A DNA stretch of 64,000 nt from Planctomycetota bacterium (GTDB lineage: Bacteria > Planctomycetota > Phycisphaerae > Phycisphaerales > Phycisphaeraceae): positions 3,100,001 to 3,164,000 of the forward strand of contig CP066225.1 in the NCBI GenBank assembly GCA_016350165.1. Reading direction: 5' to 3'. Shown piece by piece: positions 8,575 through 23,429 of the stretch. The notes under the pieces are model-generated. The model searched no databases and was not told where the DNA came from. It was given only the letters and a program-made list of their open reading frames with translations. A program made the translations under genes and the position numbers. Positions within the stretch are counted from its first letter, which is position 1, and each line of letters opens with the position of its first letter.

Positions 8575-9243
8575 ATGAAGATTTTGTTAGCCACATCCAA
8601 TCCGCATAAGCTCGAGGAGATCCAAGACATCATGGCTGATGCCGAGGTGGAACTGGTCACTCTTGCTGATATTGGTCTGGATGTACCCGAACCGGTGGAG
8701 GACAAGGACACCTTTGAGGGCAATAGCGCTCTGAAGGCCAAGTACTACGCGAATTTATCAGGCATGATGTGTATCGCGGACGACTCGGGTTTGGAAGTCG
8801 ATGCTCTAGATGGCGAGCCAGGCGTAAAATCTGCTCGTTACTCGGGTAAAGAAGGTCCTCGAAAGATCGTGGATAATGCGAATAACAGGGTGTTAATGCA
8901 GAAAATGAAAGGGATTGCGCCGAGTAAGCGTGATGCTCGTTTTGTTTGTGCAATGAGTTTATGTAGCCCTGATAAGGATGAAACGTTGGTTCAGGTGCGT
9001 GGCACGATTGAAGGCCGCATATTGACCAATGATGAATGTGAAGATGAAATTCATCCAGAGAAGGGCAAAGGCAAGAATGGCTTTGGGTATGACCCATTAT
9101 TCTTCGTCAGCGGTTTGAGCATGACCACAGCGGAACTGACTGCAGATGAAAAGAACCGCGTCAGTCATCGCGGCGCAGCAGCTCGCGAGATGGCAAGACA
9201 GTTAGTCTTGATTCGCAAGACGCAGATGGGTGAGAAAAAATAA
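8575..9243 (+). CDS. rdgB: RdgB/HAM1 family non-canonical purine NTP pyrophosphatase
   Basis: A 222-residue inosine/xanthosine triphosphate pyrophosphatase, which hydrolyses dITP, ITP and XTP to the monophosphate and PPi to keep deaminated purines out of nucleic acids. Motifs in order: LLATSNPHKLEEI (residues 4-16, substrate loop SNPHK), ADDSGLEVDALDGEPGVKSARYSG (about 63-86, catalytic acidic residues), GFGYDPLFF (about 163-171), and SHRGAAAREM near the C-terminus. Length is slightly above E. coli RdgB (197). It is followed by a clean intrinsic terminator 50 bp downstream, so it ends the GH57-rdgB unit. Confidence 0.94.
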   Translation: MKILLATSNPHKLEEIQDIMADAEVELVTLADIGLDVPEPVEDKDTFEGNSALKAKYYANLSGMMCIADDSGLEVDALDGEPGVKSARYSGKEGPRKIVDNANNRVLMQKMKGIAPSKRDARFVCAMSLCSPDKDETLVQVRGTIEGRILTNDECEDEIHPEKGKGKNGFGYDPLFFVSGLSMTTAELTADEKNRVSHRGAAAREMARQLVLIRKTQMGEKK

Positions 9244-10655: not shown

Positions 10656-11568
10656 GATGTTGAACTTGTGGGGTAGCTTGGGTTGTCGATGAGTTTGGTT
10701 AGCCCGGATTGGAGGGAGAGGAGGTTGAAGGGGATGAGCAGGATGAAGATGGCGAATGTGATGAAGACAGTGGGGATTGAGATGAGCATGTTGAGTATGT
10801 TAAAAATGCGTGAGATGTTGAGGTTTGGAAGGTTGTGCCTTGGATGAAGAAGGTGTTGATGAGGTTGAAGGTTGCGATGTAGGTCCAGCCGATGGTTAGG
10901 ATGCTCAGGGCGAAGGTGTTGCCTGAGGCGAGGATGTGGTGATTTGAATGGAAGGGTTTGAAGTTGAGCTGTTCGATGCATGCATAGAGCGCGTAGTGTG
11001 CGAGGAAGAAGGCGGTGGTGGTGGGGATGTAGAGGATTGTTTTACTGATGAAGATGACGTTTGTGTAGGTTTGTTGGGAGAAATCACCGAACGAGCTGAG
11101 GACGAGGAAGATGTAGAAAATGAATTGGAAGAAGAGGAGGGAGAGTGATGAGATTCTGAGGAGAGAAATAGCTTTCGGGACGGTGAAGAGCATTTTGTTG
11201 CGGGTGAGTTTGAACATGTTTGAGGTGTAGTTTGCGAAGATGAGCCAAATGACGAGGGAGGCGACGAGATTTAGGTTGGCTGCGTTTTCTGGGAGGATGA
11301 AGTTGTTGGTGATGAGAAGTGAGATGGCGAGGATGATGATGTAGATGGGGGTGAGTAGAAATTGGAGGTTGGCTTGTCGAAGGGTGCGTAGTTGTTTGGG
11401 GGCAGCGTAGCGGAGGAATTGTTGTTGGAGTGAGTGGTTGACGGGGTGGCCGCATTCGGGGCAGGGTTGTGAGGGTAGGAGGGTGCGGAGGTTGTAGTTA
11501 CATGAGGCGCAGTGAAAATCAATGTCGATGGGTTTATCGAATTGTGATTCGGTGGGTGCGATGATCAT
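10652..11568 (-). CDS. Zinc-ribbon multi-pass membrane protein, frameshifted (paralog 5)
   Basis: Fifth member of a tandem family. The N-terminus carries the zinc ribbon CASCNYNLRTL...CPECGHP (about residues 20-43) and several hydrophobic helices follow. The first frame reads to about 10807 and then continues as a non-hydrophobic Ser/Pro run ending at 10699. The expected last helix (IFNILNMLISIPTVF...LTKLID, like the ends of the sibling genes) lies in the -1 frame, which ends at 10652 with a TGA overlapping the next ATG. The switch falls at a run of five A at 10802-10806 (five T on the coding strand, context GCA TTT TTA AC). One missing base, a sequencing error or -1 slippage would each explain it. 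Function unknown. Confidence 0.65.
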
Positions 11569-11577
11569 GAGGTTAAT

Positions 11578-11694
11578 GTATCAGATTGTGAAACTTGTTT
11601 TATGAGTTCGGAAATTTTGAGGTGGAATTGGATGAGGTTGAGTGGGATGAGGAGGAGGAAGGATGCCTTTGTTTTTGGTGAAGAGGTTTTTCAT
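11578..11694 (-). pseudogene. Chimeric remnant: start of the small anchored gene fused to a zinc-ribbon paralog tail
   Basis: Ten bases after paralog 4 ends, the minus strand begins ATG with codons for MKNLFTKNK, nearly identical at DNA level to the start of the 10287-10655 gene. After about ten codons the sequence changes, and in another frame it encodes FLLLLIPLNLIQFHLKISEL, which matches the final helix and tail of the zinc-ribbon family. It looks like a deletion joining a lost copy of the small gene to the end of a lost paralog. Confidence 0.6.
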
Positions 11695-11703
11695 GATGCA
11701 GTT

Positions 11704-12663
11704 TTAGTTTGATTGTTGGATGATTTGGTTGATGTTGCGGCGGAGGGAGTGGGTGGGGATGAGGGTGAAGGTCAGGACGATGATGGTGAGGATGCTGATT
11801 GTGAAGCTGCTGTAGTTGTTGGTGAAGTTGAAGAGAATTGTTATGTAGTTGGGGATGAGGACGATGCGGTTATTAACTGCAGGAGAGCCATAAGTGTGGA
11901 AGTAGTACTGGCTGAAGGCGAGGCAGGCGAGTTGTAAGAGGTAGATGGTGAGTGTGAAACATGCGAAGAATATGAGGGGTTTTGTGTGTGAGTTTTTCTT
12001 ATGGGTGAAGGCGTATTTGGCGCAATGCCAAAGGTAGAGGAAGAGTGTGAGGTAGAGTGCGGAGGCGTAGGATGCGATACGGGTGCAGTAGATGAGGCCG
12101 TTGGTTGAGGCATATCTTGTTTTGAGAGGGGTGAGATAGATGATGAGGAGTGGGATGGCGATGAAGATCCATGTTTTGAGGAAAAAGCGTGAGCGGTTGG
12201 CGGGTCTTGTATTGATGAGGTTGTAGAAGATGACGAGGAGGTAGATGAGGGGGAGTGTGGAGAAGAATTGGGCTGCTTTGTGGGGTGGGAATAGTAGATT
12301 GATGGCTGAGTAGCCGAAGATTTCGTGGAGGGCGTTGTAGATGACATCAAGATGGCGGGTGAAGTAGTAGTTGTGGAGTTGCCAATTGAGGAAAGCGTGG
12401 GCGATCTGGAGGATGAGGACGATGATGATTGTGATGGTGATTTTGAGGAGTATGCGGCTGATGGTTTTGAGTTTGGGTGTGGGGGTGAGGTTGAGAGGTG
12501 GGATGGGTTTTTGGTTGAGTTGATCGATTGTTTGATAGATTGGATGGCCACATTCGGGGCAAGGTTGAGAGGGAGTGAGGGTGCGGAGGTTGTAGGTGCA
12601 TGAGACGCAGTGAAGGTCTATGTCTAATGGCTGATTAGATTGGGTATCGATGAGTTTGGGCAT
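11704..12663 (-). CDS. Zinc-ribbon multi-pass membrane protein (paralog 4)
   Basis: A 319-residue protein with an N-terminal zinc ribbon CVSCTYNLRTL...CPECGHP (residues about 19-42), a basic linker, then about six hydrophobic helices and a short basic C-terminus (FTLIPTHSLRRNINQIIQQ). The zinc ribbon likely faces the cytoplasm. The next gene upstream ends only 3 bp away, so the array is one operon. I recognise the Cys-x-x-Cys-x-Tyr-Asn-Leu-Arg-Thr-Leu style as common in planctomycete proteins, but not a named function. Confidence 0.75.
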   Translation of the reverse strand: MPKLIDTQSNQPLDIDLHCVSCTYNLRTLTPSQPCPECGHPIYQTIDQLNQKPIPPLNLTPTPKLKTISRILLKITITIIIVLILQIAHAFLNWQLHNYYFTRHLDVIYNALHEIFGYSAINLLFPPHKAAQFFSTLPLIYLLVIFYNLINTRPANRSRFFLKTWIFIAIPLLIIYLTPLKTRYASTNGLIYCTRIASYASALYLTLFLYLWHCAKYAFTHKKNSHTKPLIFFACFTLTIYLLQLACLAFSQYYFHTYGSPAVNNRIVLIPNYITILFNFTNNYSSFTISILTIIVLTFTLIPTHSLRRNINQIIQQSN

Positions 12664-12666
12664 GGG

Positions 12667-13596
12667 TTATGTTGTGGTGGTGTTTTGTGGGTGATGGTTA
12701 ATGAGTTTACTGAGGATGCGGCGGAAATAGAAGAGGGTGATGGGAGTGAGAATGAAGAGGATGAAGAGGAGGGTGTAGCCGATGACGGACGAGTAGTTCA
12801 TAAGGTCGTCTAGAGGTTTGAAGAAGCGATCAAAGGCATCGAGTTGGAGTTCATAGACGATAATGGTTCGAGCGTGGGTAAAGGTTAAGAGGAGGGCGAA
12901 GAAGATGGTGACGAGCAGGTATGTGTAGGTGGAGATTTTGGTGAGGAGTTTGTGTTTGTCGGGCATTGAGCCGAGGGAGAGGGCGGCGAGAAATGAGAAG
13001 AGGATGATGAGGCTGACGCCGAAGCTGAGGATGAGTGGTGGGGTGATGAGTGCGGAGAGATGAGTGGTTTGTGTGAGTGATAATTGCTGATATTCGTAGA
13101 TTTTGAGATCGATTAATGATTCGATGGTGACTTGTGCGAGAACTGTGAGGAAGAAGATGAGGTTTGCGACGCGGAGGGTTTTGATGGCTCGGGGTTTGAT
13201 GTATTTGAGATGAGGGAGGTTTGTTAGGCGGAAGAAGTTGAAGATGATGAAGGCGATGATGGGGACGATGGTGATGTTGATGAAGAGATCTTGATAGGCT
13301 GAGTTGGTGAGGAGGTTGAAGTAGCTGAGTTCGAGGACGATGAGCAAGGGTAGGAAGCAGTAGATGGGAGCGAGCAGGAGATGGGTGATTGAGCGGCGGA
13401 GGGTTTTGAGTTGAGTGAGTGGTGCGAGGCAGAGGTAGGGTTCCTGTAGGGTGCTGATGACGGGGTGTTCGCACTCAGGGCAGAGGTGCTTTGTGGTAAG
13501 AGTGCGGAGATTGTAATCACATTTAATGCAGTTAACATCAATATCTAATGGTTGATTAGACGTTAGATCGATGTAGCTGGTTTGGGTTATGTTCAT
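12667..13596 (-). CDS. Zinc-ribbon multi-pass membrane protein (paralog 3)
   Basis: A 309-residue sibling of its neighbours: zinc ribbon CIKCDYNLRTL...CPECEHP (about residues 23-46), then the shared linker YLCLAPLTQLKTLRR, then about six hydrophobic segments ending LFYFRRILSKLINHH. The linker YLCxAxxxxLKTLR/KSLR is common to paralogs 1, 2 and 3, making them closer to each other than to 4 and 5. It starts 7 bp after paralog 2 ends. Function unknown; the conserved domain order suggests a membrane regulator or transport-accessory role, which is speculation. Confidence 0.75.
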   Translation of the reverse strand: MNITQTSYIDLTSNQPLDIDVNCIKCDYNLRTLTTKHLCPECEHPVISTLQEPYLCLAPLTQLKTLRRSITHLLLAPIYCFLPLLIVLELSYFNLLTNSAYQDLFINITIVPIIAFIIFNFFRLTNLPHLKYIKPRAIKTLRVANLIFFLTVLAQVTIESLIDLKIYEYQQLSLTQTTHLSALITPPLILSFGVSLIILFSFLAALSLGSMPDKHKLLTKISTYTYLLVTIFFALLLTFTHARTIIVYELQLDAFDRFFKPLDDLMNYSSVIGYTLLFILFILTPITLFYFRRILSKLINHHPQNTTTT

Positions 13597-13603
13597 GGTG
13601 TGA

Positions 13604-14500
13604 TTAGCTGGTTTGGTTGTGTGAGTTAATAAGTTTGGTGATGTTACGACGGAAGAGGAAGGTGTAGAGGAGAGCGGAGCCTATGAGGGTGATGTCGATG
13701 AAGTAGAAGGTGTAGTGTGAGTATTGTCGAATAAAGGTGAGGAGTCTGTGGGGGTTGAATGTGGTGAGGTATCCACTGTTGTATTTATAGACATAGAGGC
13801 TGTAGAAGAGTTTTGCGATGAAGTGGATTGGAATGAAGATTGCGACGCAGAGTGTAAGGGCGAGAGCGAGGTAGCGTATAGGTGTGATGTGCTTAGAGGA
13901 TTTGTAGCCTAGGGAGAAAGTTGTGAGGAAGAGAAAGAAGAGGATGTATGTGAGGTAGATGGAGGTGTATTGGATGAAGCCATGGATTGTGGCGAGGTAG
14001 ATGTAGAAGGGTTCGTGAGGGTGTGAGAAGAAGGATATTTGTAATCCAGTCATGATGATGGAGGTGATGGCGGTGATGTGAAGCGTGAGTACTAGTTTGG
14101 GTTTGATTGGGCGGTATGGGTGTTTTTTAGAGGCATAAATGACGAAGAGGACGAGGTAGCTTTGAAGGGGGATGTAGGCGTAGAGGAAGGTCGTGATCCA
14201 TGGCATCATTGTTTGGATGTTTTGGGGACTGATGTTTATGAAGAAGATGCCTTGCGCGGTTTCGAGGCTGAAGATGAGGAGAGGTGCAATTAGGATGTTG
14301 AGCAAAAAGAAGCGGAGGGATTTGAGGTAGGGTAGAGGCGCGAAGCAGAGGTAGGGTTGCTTGAGTGTGTCTTGGATGGGGTGATCACACTCAGGGCAAG
14401 ATTGCGTGGAGGTGAGAGTGCGCAAGTTGTAATTGCAGTTAATGCAATGGAGGTTATGGGTGATGGGGGAGTCGATGTTTTGTGTGACTGTTTGTGGCAT
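13604..14500 (-). CDS. Zinc-ribbon multi-pass membrane protein (paralog 2)
   Basis: A 298-residue protein with zinc ribbon CINCNYNLRTL...CPECDHP (about residues 19-42), the linker YLCFAPLPYLKSLRF, and about six hydrophobic helices with the end LFRRNITKLINSHN. It has the same architecture as the adjacent genes, and it starts 15 bp after paralog 1 ends. The coding strand is strongly pyrimidine-rich (the plus strand is G-rich), as in the whole array, which produces many spurious open frames on other frames. Function unknown. Confidence 0.75.
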   Translation of the reverse strand: MPQTVTQNIDSPITHNLHCINCNYNLRTLTSTQSCPECDHPIQDTLKQPYLCFAPLPYLKSLRFFLLNILIAPLLIFSLETAQGIFFINISPQNIQTMMPWITTFLYAYIPLQSYLVLFVIYASKKHPYRPIKPKLVLTLHITAITSIIMTGLQISFFSHPHEPFYIYLATIHGFIQYTSIYLTYILFFLFLTTFSLGYKSSKHITPIRYLALALTLCVAIFIPIHFIAKLFYSLYVYKYNSGYLTTFNPHRLLTFIRQYSHYTFYFIDITLIGSALLYTFLFRRNITKLINSHNQTS

Positions 14501-14515
14501 CGTGGTGAGCTTGGG

Positions 14516-15478
14516 TTAGTTGTTGATGTTGGTGGTTTGATTTTTGATGAGTTTTTTGAGGTGAAGGCGGAAACGGAAGATATAGACGAGGGCGATGGTG
14601 AGGATGATGACGTTGAAGGTGTTGAAGAAAGGGGCTGAGTAGTGAAGTATACCTGAAAGGATGTTGATGAATTGGGGTGGTGTAGAGATGCGACCGGTGC
14701 TGAAGTATGGGTAAAGAATGAAGTGTTGAAAGAGGTCATTAAAGAGGTTAATGGCAAATGGAAGCAGGAAGAGGTATGCGAGGAGGCGGAGTGGTTTGGC
14801 GTGTGGTGAGGGGGTGTGGCCGAAGATGAAATGTGAGCAGAAACGGAAGAGTACGAAGTAAGTGATGTAGAAGGCTGAGAGGAACCAGAGTGTTTGGAAG
14901 GTGCGTAAGAGTGTGCTGGTCTCCATGAGGTGTTGTTCTTGGAAGACGATGTGGAAGAGTGCGATGATAATGGAGAGGATGATGACGAGGTATGGCCAGG
15001 CGATGAGAAAGGGGCGTTTGGGGCGTGCGGAGTTTTTCTTGGTGAGGAGGATGACGAAGGCGATGAAGTAGCATGAGATGAAGAGGGAGGTAAAGTAAGC
15101 GAAAGCGGCGGTGGTTCCGAGGAATTGGTCGAAGTTTGGGCGGAAGCCTGTGTAGGTCGTGATGATGTCGAGGACTTCGAATGAGAAGATGTTATCGATG
15201 CCGACGTGGTTGACGATGCAGATGAGGGCTTGGATGGTGTGGCAGAGGAGGAGGAGTGTGGTGGCGAAGAGGATGTTTGAGTAGGCGAAGTGGAGTGTTT
15301 TGAGGTAAGGGGTTGATGCGAAGCAGAGGTAGGTGCTATTGAGGGTTATGGAGATGGGGTGGCCACATTCTGGGCAGAGTTGTGAGGGGGTGAGGGTGCG
15401 AAGGTTGTAGTTGCAGTTGATGCAGACAAGGTCTTGGGTGATGGGAGCGTCTGGGGCGATATCGGTTGTGGTATTCAT
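14516..15478 (-). CDS. Zinc-ribbon multi-pass membrane protein (paralog 1, first of array)
   Basis: A 320-residue protein with zinc ribbon CINCNYNLRTL...CPECGHP (about residues 19-42), the linker YLCFASTPYLKTLHF, and about six hydrophobic helices, ending RFRLHLKKLIKNQ. It is the first gene of the five-paralog array and lies 87 bp after the DUF6268-like gene on the same strand, so the array may share its promoter or have its own in that gap. Function unknown. Confidence 0.75.
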   Translation of the reverse strand: MNTTTDIAPDAPITQDLVCINCNYNLRTLTPSQLCPECGHPISITLNSTYLCFASTPYLKTLHFAYSNILFATTLLLLCHTIQALICIVNHVGIDNIFSFEVLDIITTYTGFRPNFDQFLGTTAAFAYFTSLFISCYFIAFVILLTKKNSARPKRPFLIAWPYLVIILSIIIALFHIVFQEQHLMETSTLLRTFQTLWFLSAFYITYFVLFRFCSHFIFGHTPSPHAKPLRLLAYLFLLPFAINLFNDLFQHFILYPYFSTGRISTPPQFINILSGILHYSAPFFNTFNVIILTIALVYIFRFRLHLKKLIKNQTTNINN

Positions 15479-18172: not shown

Positions 18173-18240
18173 GTTGTTGGTCCTCATTTATCGTGCAGGT
18201 ACAACCATAGAGATCTGGAAAGTATTTCGCTTAAGTTTAG

Positions 18241-18272
18241 AAAAAAATAAAACCCCAGAATAGCTGGGGTTT
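18241..18272 (-). terminator. Intrinsic terminator after PEP-CTERM gene
   Basis: A 9-bp stem, AAACCCCAG (18250-18258) with CTGGGGTTT (18264-18272), loop of five. On the minus strand it is followed by TTTTATTTTTTT. Confidence 0.8.
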
Positions 18273-18311
18273 GTGTTAGTTGTATGCTAAATGTGAGGGT
18301 TATTGCAACAA

Positions 18312-18968
18312 TCAGACATGCTTTCTGCTTCGGGTTAGCAATGCCAATGAGCCGAGTGTGATAAGTGAGAGTGATGCTGGTTCAGGTATGTCGTTGATCG
18401 TTGCGCACCAGTCGTAGTCCGAGTTATAACGGAGGACAATGCCCATTCTTGTGTCAGATGGTTGTGAGAAATAGGTTGAGTCATCGTAGATAAAAAGATT
18501 GGCTGCGTATTTGGTGATGTTGCCTTCGTTATCATGTTCGAGTTGAAGAATGTCGAAAGCTCCGGAGGTCATTGAGTAGCCACCCTTATCTGATGTGTGG
18601 AACATGAGATTGCGAATGGATGAATCGTAGCTCGAGCCTGAGGTAACTTCGAAGTGGCCGACGTCGTAAGTTTCATCAGGTGTGAGTTGAACGGATGCTT
18701 CGAAAATGAAGTCGTTGTAAAGATGAACGCGGTATGTGATGCGGTTGATTGAGTTAATGGTTGGTTGCCATTCGTATACCATGTATGAGTTGTCGAAGCT
18801 TGGCGAGTAGTTGAAGGTGCCGTCACGATCTTGTCCTTCGGTGAATCTTTGTGTGCCGTATTCGTAGTACATCAGGCCTGTGTATGCATCCGCGATATAT
18901 GATGCGTGCGTGATGCTTGTTAGAAGTGGCGCAGCGATAGCTGCAACAATAGTTTGAAATTTGGTCAT
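18312..18968 (-). CDS. PEP-CTERM sorting domain protein (copy B)
   Basis: A 218-residue exported protein. The start is set at ATG 18968, where AGGAG sits 7 nt upstream. There is an N-terminal signal peptide (about residues 1-22, ending near THASY), a beta-rich domain, and the C-terminal IPEPASLSLITLGSLALLTRSRK: the PEP motif, a hydrophobic helix and a basic tail, the substrate signal for an exosortase. It is a paralog of the gene at 19464-20123; shared blocks include YTGxxYYE, DVGHFE / EIGHYE, and FDILQLEHDNEGNITKYAAN / FDILEIEFDNSGDVTKLAAN. Probably surface-located; ligand or role unknown. Confidence 0.85.
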   Translation of the reverse strand: MTKFQTIVAAIAAPLLTSITHASYIADAYTGLMYYEYGTQRFTEGQDRDGTFNYSPSFDNSYMVYEWQPTINSINRITYRVHLYNDFIFEASVQLTPDETYDVGHFEVTSGSSYDSSIRNLMFHTSDKGGYSMTSGAFDILQLEHDNEGNITKYAANLFIYDDSTYFSQPSDTRMGIVLRYNSDYDWCATINDIPEPASLSLITLGSLALLTRSRKHV

Positions 18969-19463
18969 GTCTTTCTCCTCGATAGACCTGTGTGACAACT
19001 ATCACACGTTATTGAAATGTACTTCATAAATAATTGATACGTAAAAAATATTAACAAAAAATTGCGAATGAAAACAAGTGATGCATTGTGTTGTAGCAGC
19101 CATTCACTTTGTATGACTTGTGTGAATTAAGCTTGTTTATGAAGGCAAATATCAGGTAGATTGTCTTATTGATTCAGGAAAAACGGAGAGCAATTCGGTG
19201 TGGTCTGTAGATGTAAAGTAAGAGTATGAGCGTATCGTTCCTTATGAATGTGTAATTTGACTGTGATATGCTCAGATGCGTATTGAGATGAAAATAATTT
19301 TAAAAATTTGTATTTAATATGAATAAATAGATGTTATTAACATAAATCATATATCTATCCGCCACGCATGTAGGCATGTTACGCTATGAAACAAGGAATA
19401 AATGTTTACATGCATGTTAGAAACGAATTTTAAATAGTTATTATTTTTATAGATAAATGAATA
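18969..19463. other. AT-rich intergenic between the two PEP-CTERM paralogs
   Basis: No gene or strong hairpin was seen. The part next to 18968 should hold the promoter and AGGAG ribosome binding site of the downstream PEP-CTERM gene. The DNA is markedly A/T-rich around 19290-19460. Confidence 0.45.
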
Positions 19464-20123
19464 TCATGATTTGCGTCGAGGACGTTTTAATAACATTGGA
19501 CATGCTAATGTTATAAGTGAAAGGGTGGCTGGTTCGGGGACTGAATCGAGAGGTTCGTTGTAATCGAGTTTAGCGTCGTAGTTGTATGATGAGTTGTAGC
19601 GAATTGTAACAGTCATTTGATTGTCGACGTCAGTTCGTGAGTTGTTGATGTATGCATTTGCTGCGAGTTTTGTTACATCACCTGAATTGTCAAATTCAAT
19701 TTCAAGAATATCAAAGTAACCGTCTGTTCTGGAGTATGTACTGTTGTTGCCAATGACATGAGCGATTGTACCTGTCTTATTCCACATTGAGCCATCAGTG
19801 TATTCGTAGTGGCCTATCTCGAAGCTTTCTGATTGTGGAACCTGAATCCATGTTTGCCAACGCTGGGTGTTTGATTTGTAGGCAAGAAACTCGAGACGAT
19901 TAGCTGGTGTAATCGAAGTAGAGTTCGTTATGCTAAAAGTATAAGAAGGATTGGCTTGTGAAGTGATTTCGCCTTCATGGCTTGATAGTTTTCGTGTGAT
20001 GAATGGATACACGCCGGTTTCATGGTAATGAATGCCGGTGTAAACTATGGCTGTGTGAGCGGTTGTGATTGTGATTAATGAAAATGCAATGATGCACAGA
20101 CGCTGGATCAACTGGCGGTACAT
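19464..20123 (-). CDS. PEP-CTERM sorting domain protein (copy A)
   Basis: A 219-residue exported protein, start set at ATG 20123 because GGAG lies 5 nt upstream. It has a signal peptide (about residues 1-23, ITITTAHTA), a beta-rich domain, and the C-terminal VPEPATLSLITLACPMLLKRPRRK (PEP motif, hydrophobic helix, basic tail). It is similar along its length to the gene at 18312-18968 (see that entry for shared blocks). Together they look like a recent duplication of one surface-protein gene. Function unknown. Confidence 0.85.
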   Translation of the reverse strand: MYRQLIQRLCIIAFSLITITTAHTAIVYTGIHYHETGVYPFITRKLSSHEGEITSQANPSYTFSITNSTSITPANRLEFLAYKSNTQRWQTWIQVPQSESFEIGHYEYTDGSMWNKTGTIAHVIGNNSTYSRTDGYFDILEIEFDNSGDVTKLAANAYINNSRTDVDNQMTVTIRYNSSYNYDAKLDYNEPLDSVPEPATLSLITLACPMLLKRPRRKS

Positions 20124-20418
20124 ATAAACTCCTCTGAATGATGCCTCAATCATGAATAGCTTCAAATATATACGCGATGTATCGAAGAATATTTGCGTCT
20201 TAAAATGTCAAAAAGAAATTATCGGGGTTAAACTTTGACGTTTGGGAGGTTTTGTGGTGGAGAAGTGATTGGTTTAGGTGAATCATATACATCTGACCAA
20301 TATCGATGTTGAGGATGTATTTGGTGAATTGATTGTAATGCTGAGCGATGTGAGTGCGTTAGTGGGAATACTAGAATTGTCTATTCTAGTTAATGTTTGC
20401 TTGTGTAGATCAAAAATT

Positions 20419-20571
20419 TTACTGGGTCTTTAGATTGCAGTATATCTTTTCATTAGCATGGATTGGGGTGATTGATATCCAGAGGCTGGCATAGAAGGTG
20501 TTGTTGGAATCGTTAGCAGTTATGTCGTCTGGCTCTAAAAACTGGTTGGCAATTAGTAATTCGGAAAGCAT
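20419..20571 (-). pseudogene. Truncated fragment of the EHN-family membrane paralogs
   Basis: A 50-codon minus-strand frame directly downstream of the 20573-21178 gene. Its residues FLEPDDI...SLWISITPI line up with IVKEDDI...GVWVPITPK of that gene. The N-terminal helix, the C-terminal EHN motif and the second helix are missing. It is most simply a decayed fifth copy of the tandem family. The rest of 20124-20418 shows nothing recognisable. Confidence 0.45.
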
Positions 20572-20572
20572 G

Positions 20573-21178
20573 CTAATTTTTAAAATATTGGTAGAGTCCC
20601 ATGAGGCCGATGGGGGTGATAATGAGGCCTGCCAGTAGTAATAAAACAACTTTTAAATAGCCGGGTGGTTTTTTGTTGTGTTCAATGATCAGAATATTGT
20701 CGAAGTCAGCGTCTGGGAATATTGAGCTAAATGCATCACTATTAATCTTATCGCCTACGGGAATATTATCGACGACTAAGCCTGTAAATTCTTTTGTTCT
20801 TGAAAACGCATTGATTTGTTCGGGATCATACAGATATCGCGAATAGAGAATGACTTTACATTCGGGTCTTTTTTTTACACTTTTTGATGTACGTTTTGGT
20901 GTGATCGGAACCCAAACACCACGATTCATAGTTGATCGTTCGATATCATCTTCTTTTACGATCATTGCGTTGAGCAGTGGTGTGTAATTGGTTACGGTCA
21001 TGAATAAATTGTCGCCATAACCTTCTGTGATTAGTTGTTGCGCGGTGATGGTTTGCGGTTCATTCTTACTTGAACTGAGTTGTGTGAATGCAGTGTAGCT
21101 ACTGATGAGTAGTAGTATGCCACCCAGAGTTCCGCCGAATCCGATTGCACGATTTGCACGATTTTCAAAAAAGCTCAT
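20573..21178 (-). CDS. EHN-family two-segment membrane protein (copy 4)
   Basis: A 201-residue protein of a family repeated four times here and not recognised by me. Layout: an N-terminal membrane helix (about residues 12-33), then PQTITAQQLITEGYGDNLFMTVTNY (about residues 41-65), a WVPITP motif near residue 93, GLVVDN (about 133-138), then IIEHNKKPPGYLK before a second membrane helix at the C-terminus. The domain between helices is about 130 residues, and its side of the membrane cannot be fixed. It starts 9 bp after copy 3 ends. Confidence 0.65.
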   Translation of the reverse strand: MSFFENRANRAIGFGGTLGGILLLISSYTAFTQLSSSKNEPQTITAQQLITEGYGDNLFMTVTNYTPLLNAMIVKEDDIERSTMNRGVWVPITPKRTSKSVKKRPECKVILYSRYLYDPEQINAFSRTKEFTGLVVDNIPVGDKINSDAFSSIFPDADFDNILIIEHNKKPPGYLKVVLLLLAGLIITPIGLMGLYQYFKN

Positions 21179-21187
21179 ATGATTAAA

Positions 21188-21805
21188 CTATAAATGAAGT
21201 ATTGTTTTAATGAATGTGTATCCAATGCCGATACCAGTCAGGATACAAAGAAGTCCACCTAGAAGATATATCGCGACTTTAAAATATCCTGGCGGCGTAC
21301 GGTTGTGCTCAATGATATAAATATCGTTTATATCACTCTGAGGATAGTAGTATAAAATTGCATCTTGTAATTCTGTATCGAGAGCACGAGCTTGGTTGAT
21401 AACTAAGCCTGTAAAAGTGGGGTTCTTTTTAAATTTTCTGATATGTACATCATGCTCGAAGGCACGTGTCATCATCAGAATATTTAATGTGTCATTATGT
21501 TTAGCACCTTTCGGTGTGATCGGTACCCAGCTTTCACGAAGACTTTGTCCTGCTTGAGGTTCTACTTCTGTGAGAATCATGTCTGTGTTAGCTTTGTAAT
21601 CAGTGAGCGTGATGTAAGCATTATCACTGTAACCGTTGTCGATGAGTTCTTGTGCGGAGATTGTTTGAGGTGTACTGTTACCTGTATTTACCAAGAGAAA
21701 TGATTGGTATGCAAGGTAAAGTAAGAATAAGCCACCGAATATGCCGCCGATCGCGATTAACGGCATCTTAAAAATGAATTTCTTCTCTGATCTTGAATAA
21801 TCCAT
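21188..21805 (-). CDS. EHN-family two-segment membrane protein (copy 3)
   Basis: A 205-residue member of the tandem family: N-terminal helix (about residues 15-35), PQTISAQELIDNGYSDNAY, then ITLTDYK, a central SWVPITPKG motif, GLVINQ, and IIEHNRTPPGYFK before the last helix. The PQTIxAxxLIxxGY block and the EHNxxPxG block are the best-conserved parts and would define the family in a profile search. Close spacing to copies 2 and 4 indicates one transcript. Function unknown. Confidence 0.65.
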   Translation of the reverse strand: MDYSRSEKKFIFKMPLIAIGGIFGGLFLLYLAYQSFLLVNTGNSTPQTISAQELIDNGYSDNAYITLTDYKANTDMILTEVEPQAGQSLRESWVPITPKGAKHNDTLNILMMTRAFEHDVHIRKFKKNPTFTGLVINQARALDTELQDAILYYYPQSDINDIYIIEHNRTPPGYFKVAIYLLGGLLCILTGIGIGYTFIKTILHL

Positions 21806-21892
21806 AGCTCGTTTAGTATAACTCGTAATTGTGTCGTAGAAATTTTACAGAAACTATCAATCGCAAAATTCAAACTGAAGTGGCGTTTATTA

Positions 21893-22555
21893 TTATCGTT
21901 TTTTAAAACTAACAAAAGCCATGCCAAGACCCACCAAAGTTAAGGCACCACCGCCACCGAGATAACCTGCGATCATGCCAATACCTGAAGGTTTGCGATT
22001 GTGTTCAAGAATCAGAACCTTTGAAAGGTCGGTATCTCTCAGATCACGTTTAAGGTGTTTAAGTTCATCGCTGCCAAGGGAATCAACATCATTCACGATC
22101 AATCCAGAAACTGATTCAGCGTATGCCATGTTACGGAACTGGTTGTCGGTATGAATACTCTTTGAAAGCAAAACAATATCAACATTTGTCGGTGCTTTGA
22201 CCGCTTTGATTTTTTCCTCATCATTGCCAGCATCATGTAAAGCAATGTTGTAGGGGTGGTTAATTGGTACAAGGGGAGCCCATATGCGAGTGTAGTGATC
22301 TTTATTGTCTTCTTTGTATTCGAATAGGGAAGATTCGCCGATTACTACAAAATCAGTCAATGTGATATGTGCATTTTCGCCGTATCCATTATTGATTAGA
22401 TCTTCAGCTGTTATTGTTTGTGGTTTTGTATTAGCGACTGACGCTAAACGTACTTCTTTAACGCCAAAGAAACAGAGTACAACCCCAATAATGATTGCAG
22501 CGAGTGTTATTCTAAACATTGCATTTTGCCCTTGTAGAATATATTGAAAATTCAA
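21893..22555 (-). CDS. EHN-family two-segment membrane protein (copy 2)
   Basis: A 220-residue member: N-terminal helix (about residues 14-32), PQTITAEDLINNGYGENAH with ITLTDF after it, an IWAPLVPI motif in place of WVPITP, GLIVND, and LILEHNRKPSGIG followed by a glycine-rich C-terminal helix and a basic tail. It is separated from copy 1 by 52 bp. Function unknown. Confidence 0.65.
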   Translation of the reverse strand: MNFQYILQGQNAMFRITLAAIIIGVVLCFFGVKEVRLASVANTKPQTITAEDLINNGYGENAHITLTDFVVIGESSLFEYKEDNKDHYTRIWAPLVPINHPYNIALHDAGNDEEKIKAVKAPTNVDIVLLSKSIHTDNQFRNMAYAESVSGLIVNDVDSLGSDELKHLKRDLRDTDLSKVLILEHNRKPSGIGMIAGYLGGGGALTLVGLGMAFVSFKKR

Positions 22556-22607
22556 GAAAAGTCATGATAGCTAAATAAGGTGTATTTTGAAAGCTTCCTT
22601 CGTCCTG

Positions 22608-23300
22608 TTATGTATTAAGCGATTGTTCCTGATGATTGCATAATTCATTTTGTTTACACAGCTTCATATACAGGATGTAACTAATGATTAATAGTGAGAT
22701 ACCAATTGAATATAAAACAGCGAAATACCATATTGATTTTGGTTTTCGATTATGTTCAATAATAATGACATGATCTGTATTAATGCTCATACGAACCTGA
22801 CTAAATTTGCTTGCCATATCTTTATGCATTATTTGAATACTGTTAATCACTGTGCCGCGTATTGTTTGTGTATTAGATAATTCAACTAAATCAGAGTATG
22901 AGCGGACTGAGTTAGTTTTGAGTATTAGGTTGGTACTTGTGTGGTACTCAAAATCATTGGGGACGATGGGGATGTAAATTGTATTGAATGGTTGTGTGTC
23001 TTTGTTGGCCATCTCGAAATTTGTATCGACACCACTTGTTTTACTGATTCTTGTTGTTTCTTTGATTGCTAAATGAATCTGTAGTTTATAATCAATTAGT
23101 TTGATGTAAGCATTCTTGATTGCGTGCTTACTGACAATTTCGGCCGGCTGGATGATTTGAGGTGTGGGATCACTTAAAGAAAATAGCTTGTATTCTTTGT
23201 AGCCGTTGATGCAGATATATACACCGATTGCAGCCAGAATGAGGACCGTTCCCTTCTTGCTGAAAATGAAGTTACTTATATCTTCCTTGGTATTGCCCAT
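22608..23300 (-). CDS. EHN-family two-segment membrane protein (copy 1, most diverged)
   Basis: A 230-residue member and first gene of the array. It keeps the N-terminal helix (about residues 17-33), PQIIQPAEIV in place of PQTITAxxLI, a YIPIVP motif, GTVINS, and VIIIEHNRKPKSIWYF before the C-terminal helix, then a 15-residue polar tail. It is the most diverged copy. It lies 129 bp downstream of leuC on the same strand but past leuC's terminator, so a separate promoter is likely. Function unknown. Confidence 0.6.
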   Translation of the reverse strand: MGNTKEDISNFIFSKKGTVLILAAIGVYICINGYKEYKLFSLSDPTPQIIQPAEIVSKHAIKNAYIKLIDYKLQIHLAIKETTRISKTSGVDTNFEMANKDTQPFNTIYIPIVPNDFEYHTSTNLILKTNSVRSYSDLVELSNTQTIRGTVINSIQIMHKDMASKFSQVRMSINTDHVIIIEHNRKPKSIWYFAVLYSIGISLLIISYILYMKLCKQNELCNHQEQSLNT

Positions 23301-23371
23301 CAGCCGATCCTATTTGTTAAGTTTAGGAGATGATTATCATAAACAATGAGATTTGCAGTTCAAGGTAAAAT

Positions 23372-23402
23372 AAAAAAGCCCAGACTTTTTAGTCTGGGCT
23401 TT
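23372..23402 (-). terminator. Intrinsic terminator after leuC
   Basis: A perfect 12-bp stem, AAAGCCCAGACT (23375-23386) with AGTCTGGGCTTT (23391-23402), 4-nt loop. Read on the minus strand it is followed by a T-rich tail. Confidence 0.88.
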
Positions 23403-23429
23403 AAAGTGTTTTATTTAACTAATCGTTGA

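Follow-up and report, generated by a model that had tools for sequence, protein, structure and literature searches.

A tandem array of genes for two-helix membrane proteins

A stretch of 64,000 nucleotides from a deep-sea planctomycete (assembly GCA_016350165.1, contig CP066225.1, positions 3,100,001 to 3,164,000 of the forward strand; hereafter the window, with coordinates counted from its first nucleotide) contains four adjacent open reading frames (ORFs) on the minus strand, spanning 20573-23300, which encode divergent paralogous membrane proteins of an undescribed planctomycete family. A sequence-only reading had singled out this array as a tandemly expanded family of two-helix membrane proteins, which the analysis described here bears out. 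The genes and two of the motifs shared by their products are as follows (aa, amino acids; TM, transmembrane; OB, oligonucleotide/oligosaccharide-binding):

20573-21178, minus strand: copy 1, ORF of 201 aa, predicted TM helix, OB-like domain and TM helix; paralogy z of 13.7-39.3
21188-21805, minus strand: copy 2, ORF of 205 aa; AlphaFold model 1, with Foldseek and VIA matches
21293-21310, minus strand: EHNRTP (residues 166-171 of copy 2), at the point where the last predicted beta strand ends and turns toward the second TM helix (TM2)
21659-21670, minus strand: PQTI motif of copy 2 (residues 46-49), directly after the first TM helix (TM1)
21893-22519, minus strand: copy 3, 208 aa from the ATG at 22519; AlphaFold model 2; nearest relatives L006 and L007
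22608-23300, minus strand: copy 4, ORF of 230 aa, the most diverged copy, with an end branch of 1.93 in the tree; first gene of the presumed operon

The full ORF of copy 3 is 21893-22555 (220 aa), and the ATG at 22519 gives a start resembling that of its relatives; counted from this codon, the gaps between the genes are 9, 87 and 88 bases. The four genes are paralogues: their products share 22-38% identity in pairwise BLASTP comparisons (E-values of 2e-10 to 6e-39), and with the helices removed, each of the six pairs of copies scores 13.7-39.3 standard deviations higher than 500 shuffled versions. Common to all four are the motifs P-Q-x-I, [WY]-x-P-x-x-P, G-x-[VI] and E-H-N-x-x-P along with the hydrophobic ends; the conserved blocks, the WVPITP-like center and the terminal helices had been perceived correctly from the sequence. 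The starting point of 20419 that had been given to the array is wrong: the 154 bases from 20419 to 20572 hold only part of an ORF in another frame (20419-20649) that is unsupported as a gene.

An undescribed planctomycete protein family

As had been suspected, no Pfam or NCBIfam family covers the four copies, the best match of any of them being no better than E = 0.048. When the copies and other members were scanned against Pfam, NCBIfam, PHROGs and PADLOC, the matches were weak or confined to TM segments, sequence searches of the PDB gave nothing significant (best E of 0.085), and copy 3 had no match in plasmid and phage records. Among the matches seen, just one exceeded a curated cut-off, that of the relative L006 to DUF3185 (PF11381; 28.9 bits against a cut-off of 25.3), which is limited to residues 4-28, that is, to a 25-residue TM1; across the scanned members, DUF3185 was matched by 4 of 8, 3 of 34 (E up to 0.05) and 1 of 6 sequences, and by none of the four window copies (E up to 1). 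A profile of the family, the search that had been proposed for its identification, yielded no match to a family with an assigned role; a fold match appeared instead (see below). Literature searches on Surf1 with planctomycetes or the OB-fold, on DUF3185 and on lineage-specific planctomycete membrane proteins turned up no description of the family, as judged by titles and the openings of abstracts. Judging from these comparisons of sequences, the proteins form an undescribed planctomycete family without a Pfam or NCBIfam model.

The profile recovers copy 1 from its own genome at E = 2e-85, this copy being among the sequences from which the profile was built. In the counts that follow, the source genome is included, the family, order and phylum sets overlap, and copy numbers as well as tallies are to be read as minimum values. 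With a limit of E = 0.01, matches were found in 6 of the 51 genomes from the same taxonomic family, in at least 10 of 400 genomes of the order and, with an eight-sequence profile, in at least 26 of 392 genomes of the phylum, where the order and phylum figures include rows as weak as 0.004 and 0.008, possibly due to chance. A 34-sequence profile applied at E up to 0.001 gave matches in at least 33 of 384 phylum genomes. The 34 members were drawn from 83 matched ORFs, mostly the same genes repeated, using an E-value threshold of 1e-5 and a minimum length of 150, with near-duplicates removed; the distinct rows left out are both pieces of the G025 gene, L012, L015, L024, L044, L046, L047 and L052. 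Among the matches listed, 28 of the 33 carriers have a single match each, adjacent pairs are found in three genomes (G461, G574 and G708) and four copies in the source genome (G000), whereas two overlapping partial matches in G635 resemble one broken gene. As to the distribution outside Planctomycetota, the analysis covered one strict pattern scan of genome contigs; it matched 74 stretches, two of which encode relatives, both from Phycisphaeraceae.

In another genome (G034), weak family matches form part of longer frames (L012 and L015; 466 and about 810 residues). Both frames start with a zinc-ribbon-like motif and a single membrane helix, whereas the second helix typical of the family seems to be missing.

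Sequence conservation and membrane topology

Across the 34 members, only four columns are conserved at 90% or more, namely G26, P47, P96 and G153 (copy 3 numbering here and below). The highest counts among the polar columns are 25 of 34 for N63 and D70, followed by R189 (24), T51 (22), and E36, N157 and E186 (21 each). Because only glycines and prolines reach 90% and no polar column exceeds 25 of 34, catalysis is unlikely, and the pattern is more suggestive of a structural framework than of an active site. The E-H-N-x-x-P motif, for which a shared structural or catalytic role had been proposed, is indeed retained in the four copies, but not family-wide: of the 34 relatives, 21 have E and 9 have H in the respective columns, followed by R in 24 and P in 26, so that the catalytic role is unsupported.

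Averaged over the 34 members, the segment following TM2 has a net charge of +1.9 and the one preceding TM1 a net charge of +0.6, compared to +0.3 and -0.3 on the sides of these helices that border the domain. On average, this fits cytoplasmic ends and an extracytoplasmic domain, with the sign as expected at each end in only 20 of the 34 members; the OB-like domain thus probably faces out of the cytoplasm.

Predicted fold and the resemblance to SURF1-like proteins

Structure prediction, which had been recommended as a check, was performed for two copies and gave an OB-like domain between two membrane helices. Both AlphaFold models, of copy 2 (model 1; predicted local distance difference test score, pLDDT, 79.8; predicted template modeling score, pTM, 0.63) and copy 3 (model 2; pLDDT 81.3, pTM 0.68), consist of a long helix, a beta core with inter-strand helices and a second long helix; in model 1, TM1 comprises residues 4-41, the beta core 47-167 and TM2 174-203. 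The two models are not independent because they were built from the same six sequences.

The single Foldseek hit below 0.001, common to both models and extending over the full length, is 8b6h_DW, a chain of the Tetrahymena complex IV (E of 8.8e-4 for model 1 and 8.2e-4 for model 2). For model 2, the next rows are 8gym_H (E of 1.5e-3), 7w5z_H (0.072), and 7w5z_D and 8gym_D (to 0.37). In the PDB sequence table, 7w5z_H is named 'SURF1-like protein', and the identical sequence is also present in 8b6h and 8gym; judging by entry, length and rank, 8b6h_DW and 8gym_H are probably this SURF1-like subunit, and chains D and DP may represent the second Surf1-like subunit of Tetrahymena. The two Surf1-like subunits of the Tetrahymena complex IV are each described as combining a lumen-exposed soluble domain with a TM helix hairpin (PMC10060162).

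VIA-align placed the same chains high, with Z of 8.6 for 8b6h_DW and 8.5 for both 8gym_D and 7w5z_D in the case of model 1, and 7.9 for 8b6h_DP, 7.6 for 7w5z_D and 7.4 for 8gym_H in the case of model 2 (root-mean-square deviation, rmsd, of 5.9-6.5 across the two models). The core by itself is matched by chains of CST/Stn1-Ten1 and asparaginyl-tRNA synthetase (AsnRS), with Z of 7.4-8.0 and rmsd of 2.8-3.1 over 88-91 residues, and many OB chains reach Z of 6-8 on the predicted models, by overall superposition rather than strand-by-strand topology. As to SURF1, the arrangement of two helices and one beta domain is found in both models, and SURF1-like matches top the lists, but at template modeling scores (TM-scores) of only 0.42-0.45 and Z of 7.4-8.6. 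Of these predicted features, the OB-like core appears to be the firmer part and the whole-chain SURF1-like match the suggestive one.

Genomic context and evolutionary history

The array lies in a segment that differs between two species of one genus. Two further features were located in it:

18174-23418: block missing from the sister genome; it holds the array as well as two tandem ORFs whose ends are PEP-CTERM-like (blastn and tblastn against L103, the sister locus)
23375-23402, minus strand: terminator-like hairpin of 12 pairs after the leuC-like gene, between this gene and the array

In the sister locus, leuC ends at 8942 and a nitroreductase gene starts at 9148, about 200 bases apart, and the source genome holds about 5.2 kb more at this site; no family member was found in profile searches of the contigs of this same-genus sister genome (G044). 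In a different genus of the same family (G025), the gene order is GH57-rdgB-family gene-leuC, with the family gene broken in the assembly and leuC in the opposite orientation, and in a second genome of that genus (G026), GH57, rdgB and the family gene are followed by the contig end.

The best tree unites copy 3 with L006 and L007 of another genus (support of 95/88) and places copies 1, 2 and 4 in a separate, fast-evolving clade (96/95); the genome of L007 holds more than one copy. The four copies come together in 4% of the bootstrap trees, and a tree with a single clade of four is not rejected (approximately unbiased test, p-AU of 0.427). A simple history would be that of an old gene at this site, between rdgB and leuC, that multiplied in place in the line leading to Poriferisphaera heterotrophicis ZRK32, taken as the source strain, and was lost in P. 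corsica, taken as the sister species; alternatively, the gene may never have been present in the latter. The presence and absence of the family at a collinear site in two species of one genus makes it testable. The family occurs in many planctomycete lineages and offers functional studies a defined target, with a predicted fold, a conserved framework and relatives at the same chromosomal site.

The gene upstream of the array, here called leuC-like, encodes a member of the aconitase/3-isopropylmalate dehydratase large-subunit family, and the hairpin between this gene and the array suggests that the array is probably a separate transcription unit; in the entire window, three terminator-like sites were found against 2.4 expected. 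Promoter-like sites showed no excess (8 against 12.1 expected), and no Rfam family reached its gathering score within the window.

Several other features of this region were observed. The two remaining ORFs of the missing block (18312-18998 and 19464-20165, minus strand) are paralogous (32% identity, E of 3e-29), and one of their PEP-CTERM-like C-termini scores above the Pfam cut-off and the other below it. At 10699-15478 on the minus strand, there are five tandem ORFs that resemble one another and have a zinc-ribbon-like motif at the N-terminus (CxxCxYNLRTL...CPECxHP) as well as long hydrophobic stretches, and one similar zinc-ribbon-like ORF is present in the same interval of the sister (L103:11332-12348). 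With five tandem ORFs against one in the sister, the rdgB-leuC interval looks like a hot spot of tandem amplification. In the segment 10001-18000, where genes are mostly on the minus strand, the GC skew is extreme, at +0.51 to +0.66 per 2 kb; downstream, the skew is -0.08 to +0.42.

Possible functions of the family

We tentatively favor the possibility that these are non-catalytic, extracytoplasmic proteins resembling scaffolds or assembly factors, with a SURF1-type architecture, encoded by tandem paralogues that were amplified in place. The arguments for a scaffold role are the lack of a clear catalytic signature, the probable location of the domain outside the cytoplasm, the helix hairpin and the SURF1-like architecture. 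The helix hairpin would pack against an integral membrane partner, the barrel would hold the outer face of that partner, and the paralogues might serve different partners or combine with each other.

Several observations weigh against this possibility. The match to 8b6h_DW is modest (TM-scores of 0.45 and 0.42 for the two models, rmsd of about 8); the Z of the Tetrahymena chains is level with those of OB-fold rows and of unrelated helical rows (up to 8.0), and VIA-align itself warns that such values may mean a common arrangement. The 34 members aligned with nine SURF1 proteins from alphaproteobacterial plasmids, a small and narrow set (number of effective sequences, Neff, 3.1), at an hhalign probability of 2.6%, compared to 98.8% for the positive control of near against far members of the family. 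A role in binding or catalysis would be compatible with the half-conserved polar columns N63, D70, N157, E186 and R189. No conserved partner gene emerged: neighbors in 20 loci are shared within two genera (g320 and g299) and in two isolated pairs, by a procedure (longest-ORF calling and blastp) that is crude in G+C-rich genomes and missed the family gene itself in 8 of the 20 loci, and of 10 chosen neighbors, eight match mostly unrelated Pfam families and two match none. Finally, one genome (G017) has two copies on different contigs, so that multiple copies are not always tandem.

The same polar columns bring up a rather doubtful alternative, under which the proteins are membrane-anchored OB-type binders of a small or polymeric ligand (a glycan, a peptide or heme), with paralogues tuned to different ligands. 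The OB-like core, the presence of CcmE and a putative nucleic acid-binding lipoprotein among the VIA rows, the strong divergence of the copies outside the framework, and the counts for N63 and D70 (25 of 34), R189 (24) and N157 and E186 (21) are compatible with binding; yet, none of these five columns reaches 75%, and no transporter or enzyme is a common neighbor beyond the two genera and two isolated pairs.

Another possibility, which is unlikely, is that copies 1, 2 and 4 merely duplicate copy 3, are dispensable and drift, having no function of their own. The long branches (1.93 for copy 4) and the G+C content of the copies, 0.35-0.40 compared to 0.46 for the window, speak for it; against it, none of the four reading frames is interrupted, and PQxI, the P-x-x-P center and EHN are retained in each despite a difference of at least 60%.

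In planctomycetes, most of which are otherwise without SURF1, the proteins might be true, highly diverged SURF1 proteins that help to assemble heme-copper oxidases, but this appears quite improbable. In its favor, canonical SURF1 (PF02104) is nearly absent above the cut-off, with no match in 41 near relatives and one in 294 genomes of the phylum, while the source genome has three COX1 matches over the cut-off, and the best fold matches are Tetrahymena chains, at least one of which, 7w5z_H, is SURF1-like. By sequence, SURF1 membership was nonetheless rejected: in addition to the low profile probability, PF02104 had no hit in the four window copies, the 34 members or the source genome, and three motifs read from the nine SURF1 proteins (WQxxR after TM1, RG[WF][VIL], and HLxY before TM2) are present in nine of nine of these, against 3, 1 and 0 of the 34 members, respectively. 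The sister genome likewise has three COX1 matches, without a family member, so that oxidase assembly does not require the family in all of the genus. The COX1 matches of the source genome are at 1745252, 2816131 and 4671588 (1.75, 2.82 and 4.67 Mb), whereas the array is at 3.12 Mb. P. heterotrophicis ZRK32, in whose genome the three COX1-family matches were noted, is reported as strictly anaerobic, and P. corsica KS4, taken as the sister G044, is called aerobic (PMC10945688).

A self-protection array, whether of immunity proteins against toxins of competitors or a phage-defense module, would account for tandem diverging copies and a patchy occurrence (at least 33 of 384 genomes, and absence from the collinear site in the sister) but is very improbable given that the PADLOC scan of eight members gave a best E of 0.009 with three models, each matched by one member, that lone members lie beside housekeeping genes in G025 and G026, and that no toxin family is among the Pfam hits of the scanned part of the neighbors.

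Comparison with known systems

The comparison with GIDE that the sequence-only reading had suggested found no support. The GIDE/BAM domain (PF12483) is likewise membrane-associated; it was rejected as a relative, with no Pfam hit, no match in the source genome and an hhalign probability of 0.3% against 12 planctomycete GIDE proteins (12 of 12 loci). Sequences of DUF3592 (PF12158) resemble the family in having two hydrophobic ends around a middle domain; DUF3592 was rejected as well, with no Pfam hit and an hhalign probability of 9.7% over 72 columns (21 of 25 loci used), the highest among the three families tested, against 98.8% for the control. Neither appears in the fold lists, an absence that carries no weight as the compared structures are without predicted models of cellular proteins. 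The source genome has nine DUF3592 matches. In the case of DUF3185, the likeness is confined to TM1 of a single relative.

The predicted core of the family superposes with the OB-fold domains of CST/Stn1-Ten1, AsnRS and CcmE at Z of about 6-8 over 76-97 residues, mostly with an rmsd of about 3 (5.9 for CcmE, 1sr3). To our knowledge, none of these domains is framed by two membrane helices, and a shared OB fold does not show a function.

The closest parallel to the scaffold-like proteins that we favor is with SURF1/SHY1 (PF02104) and the Surf1-like subunits of Tetrahymena, with which the family, as modeled, has in common two membrane helices and one extracytoplasmic domain. It differs from SURF1 in the lack of sequence-profile similarity, in the absence or rarity of the SURF1 motifs, in that no link to oxidase genes was seen among the loci compared, and in a TM-score below 0.5. 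By analogy, the family might comprise planctomycete assembly or accessory subunits of SURF1 shape that were uncoupled from heme-copper oxidases, with the tandem paralogues joining in the same membrane complex, in the way that a single ciliate complex IV bears two different Surf1-like subunits; to this specific version, we assign a low probability. If the SURF1 resemblance reflects common ancestry, scaffolds of the SURF1 type would predate oxidase assembly and extend beyond it; if it does not, the same membrane architecture would have arisen twice.

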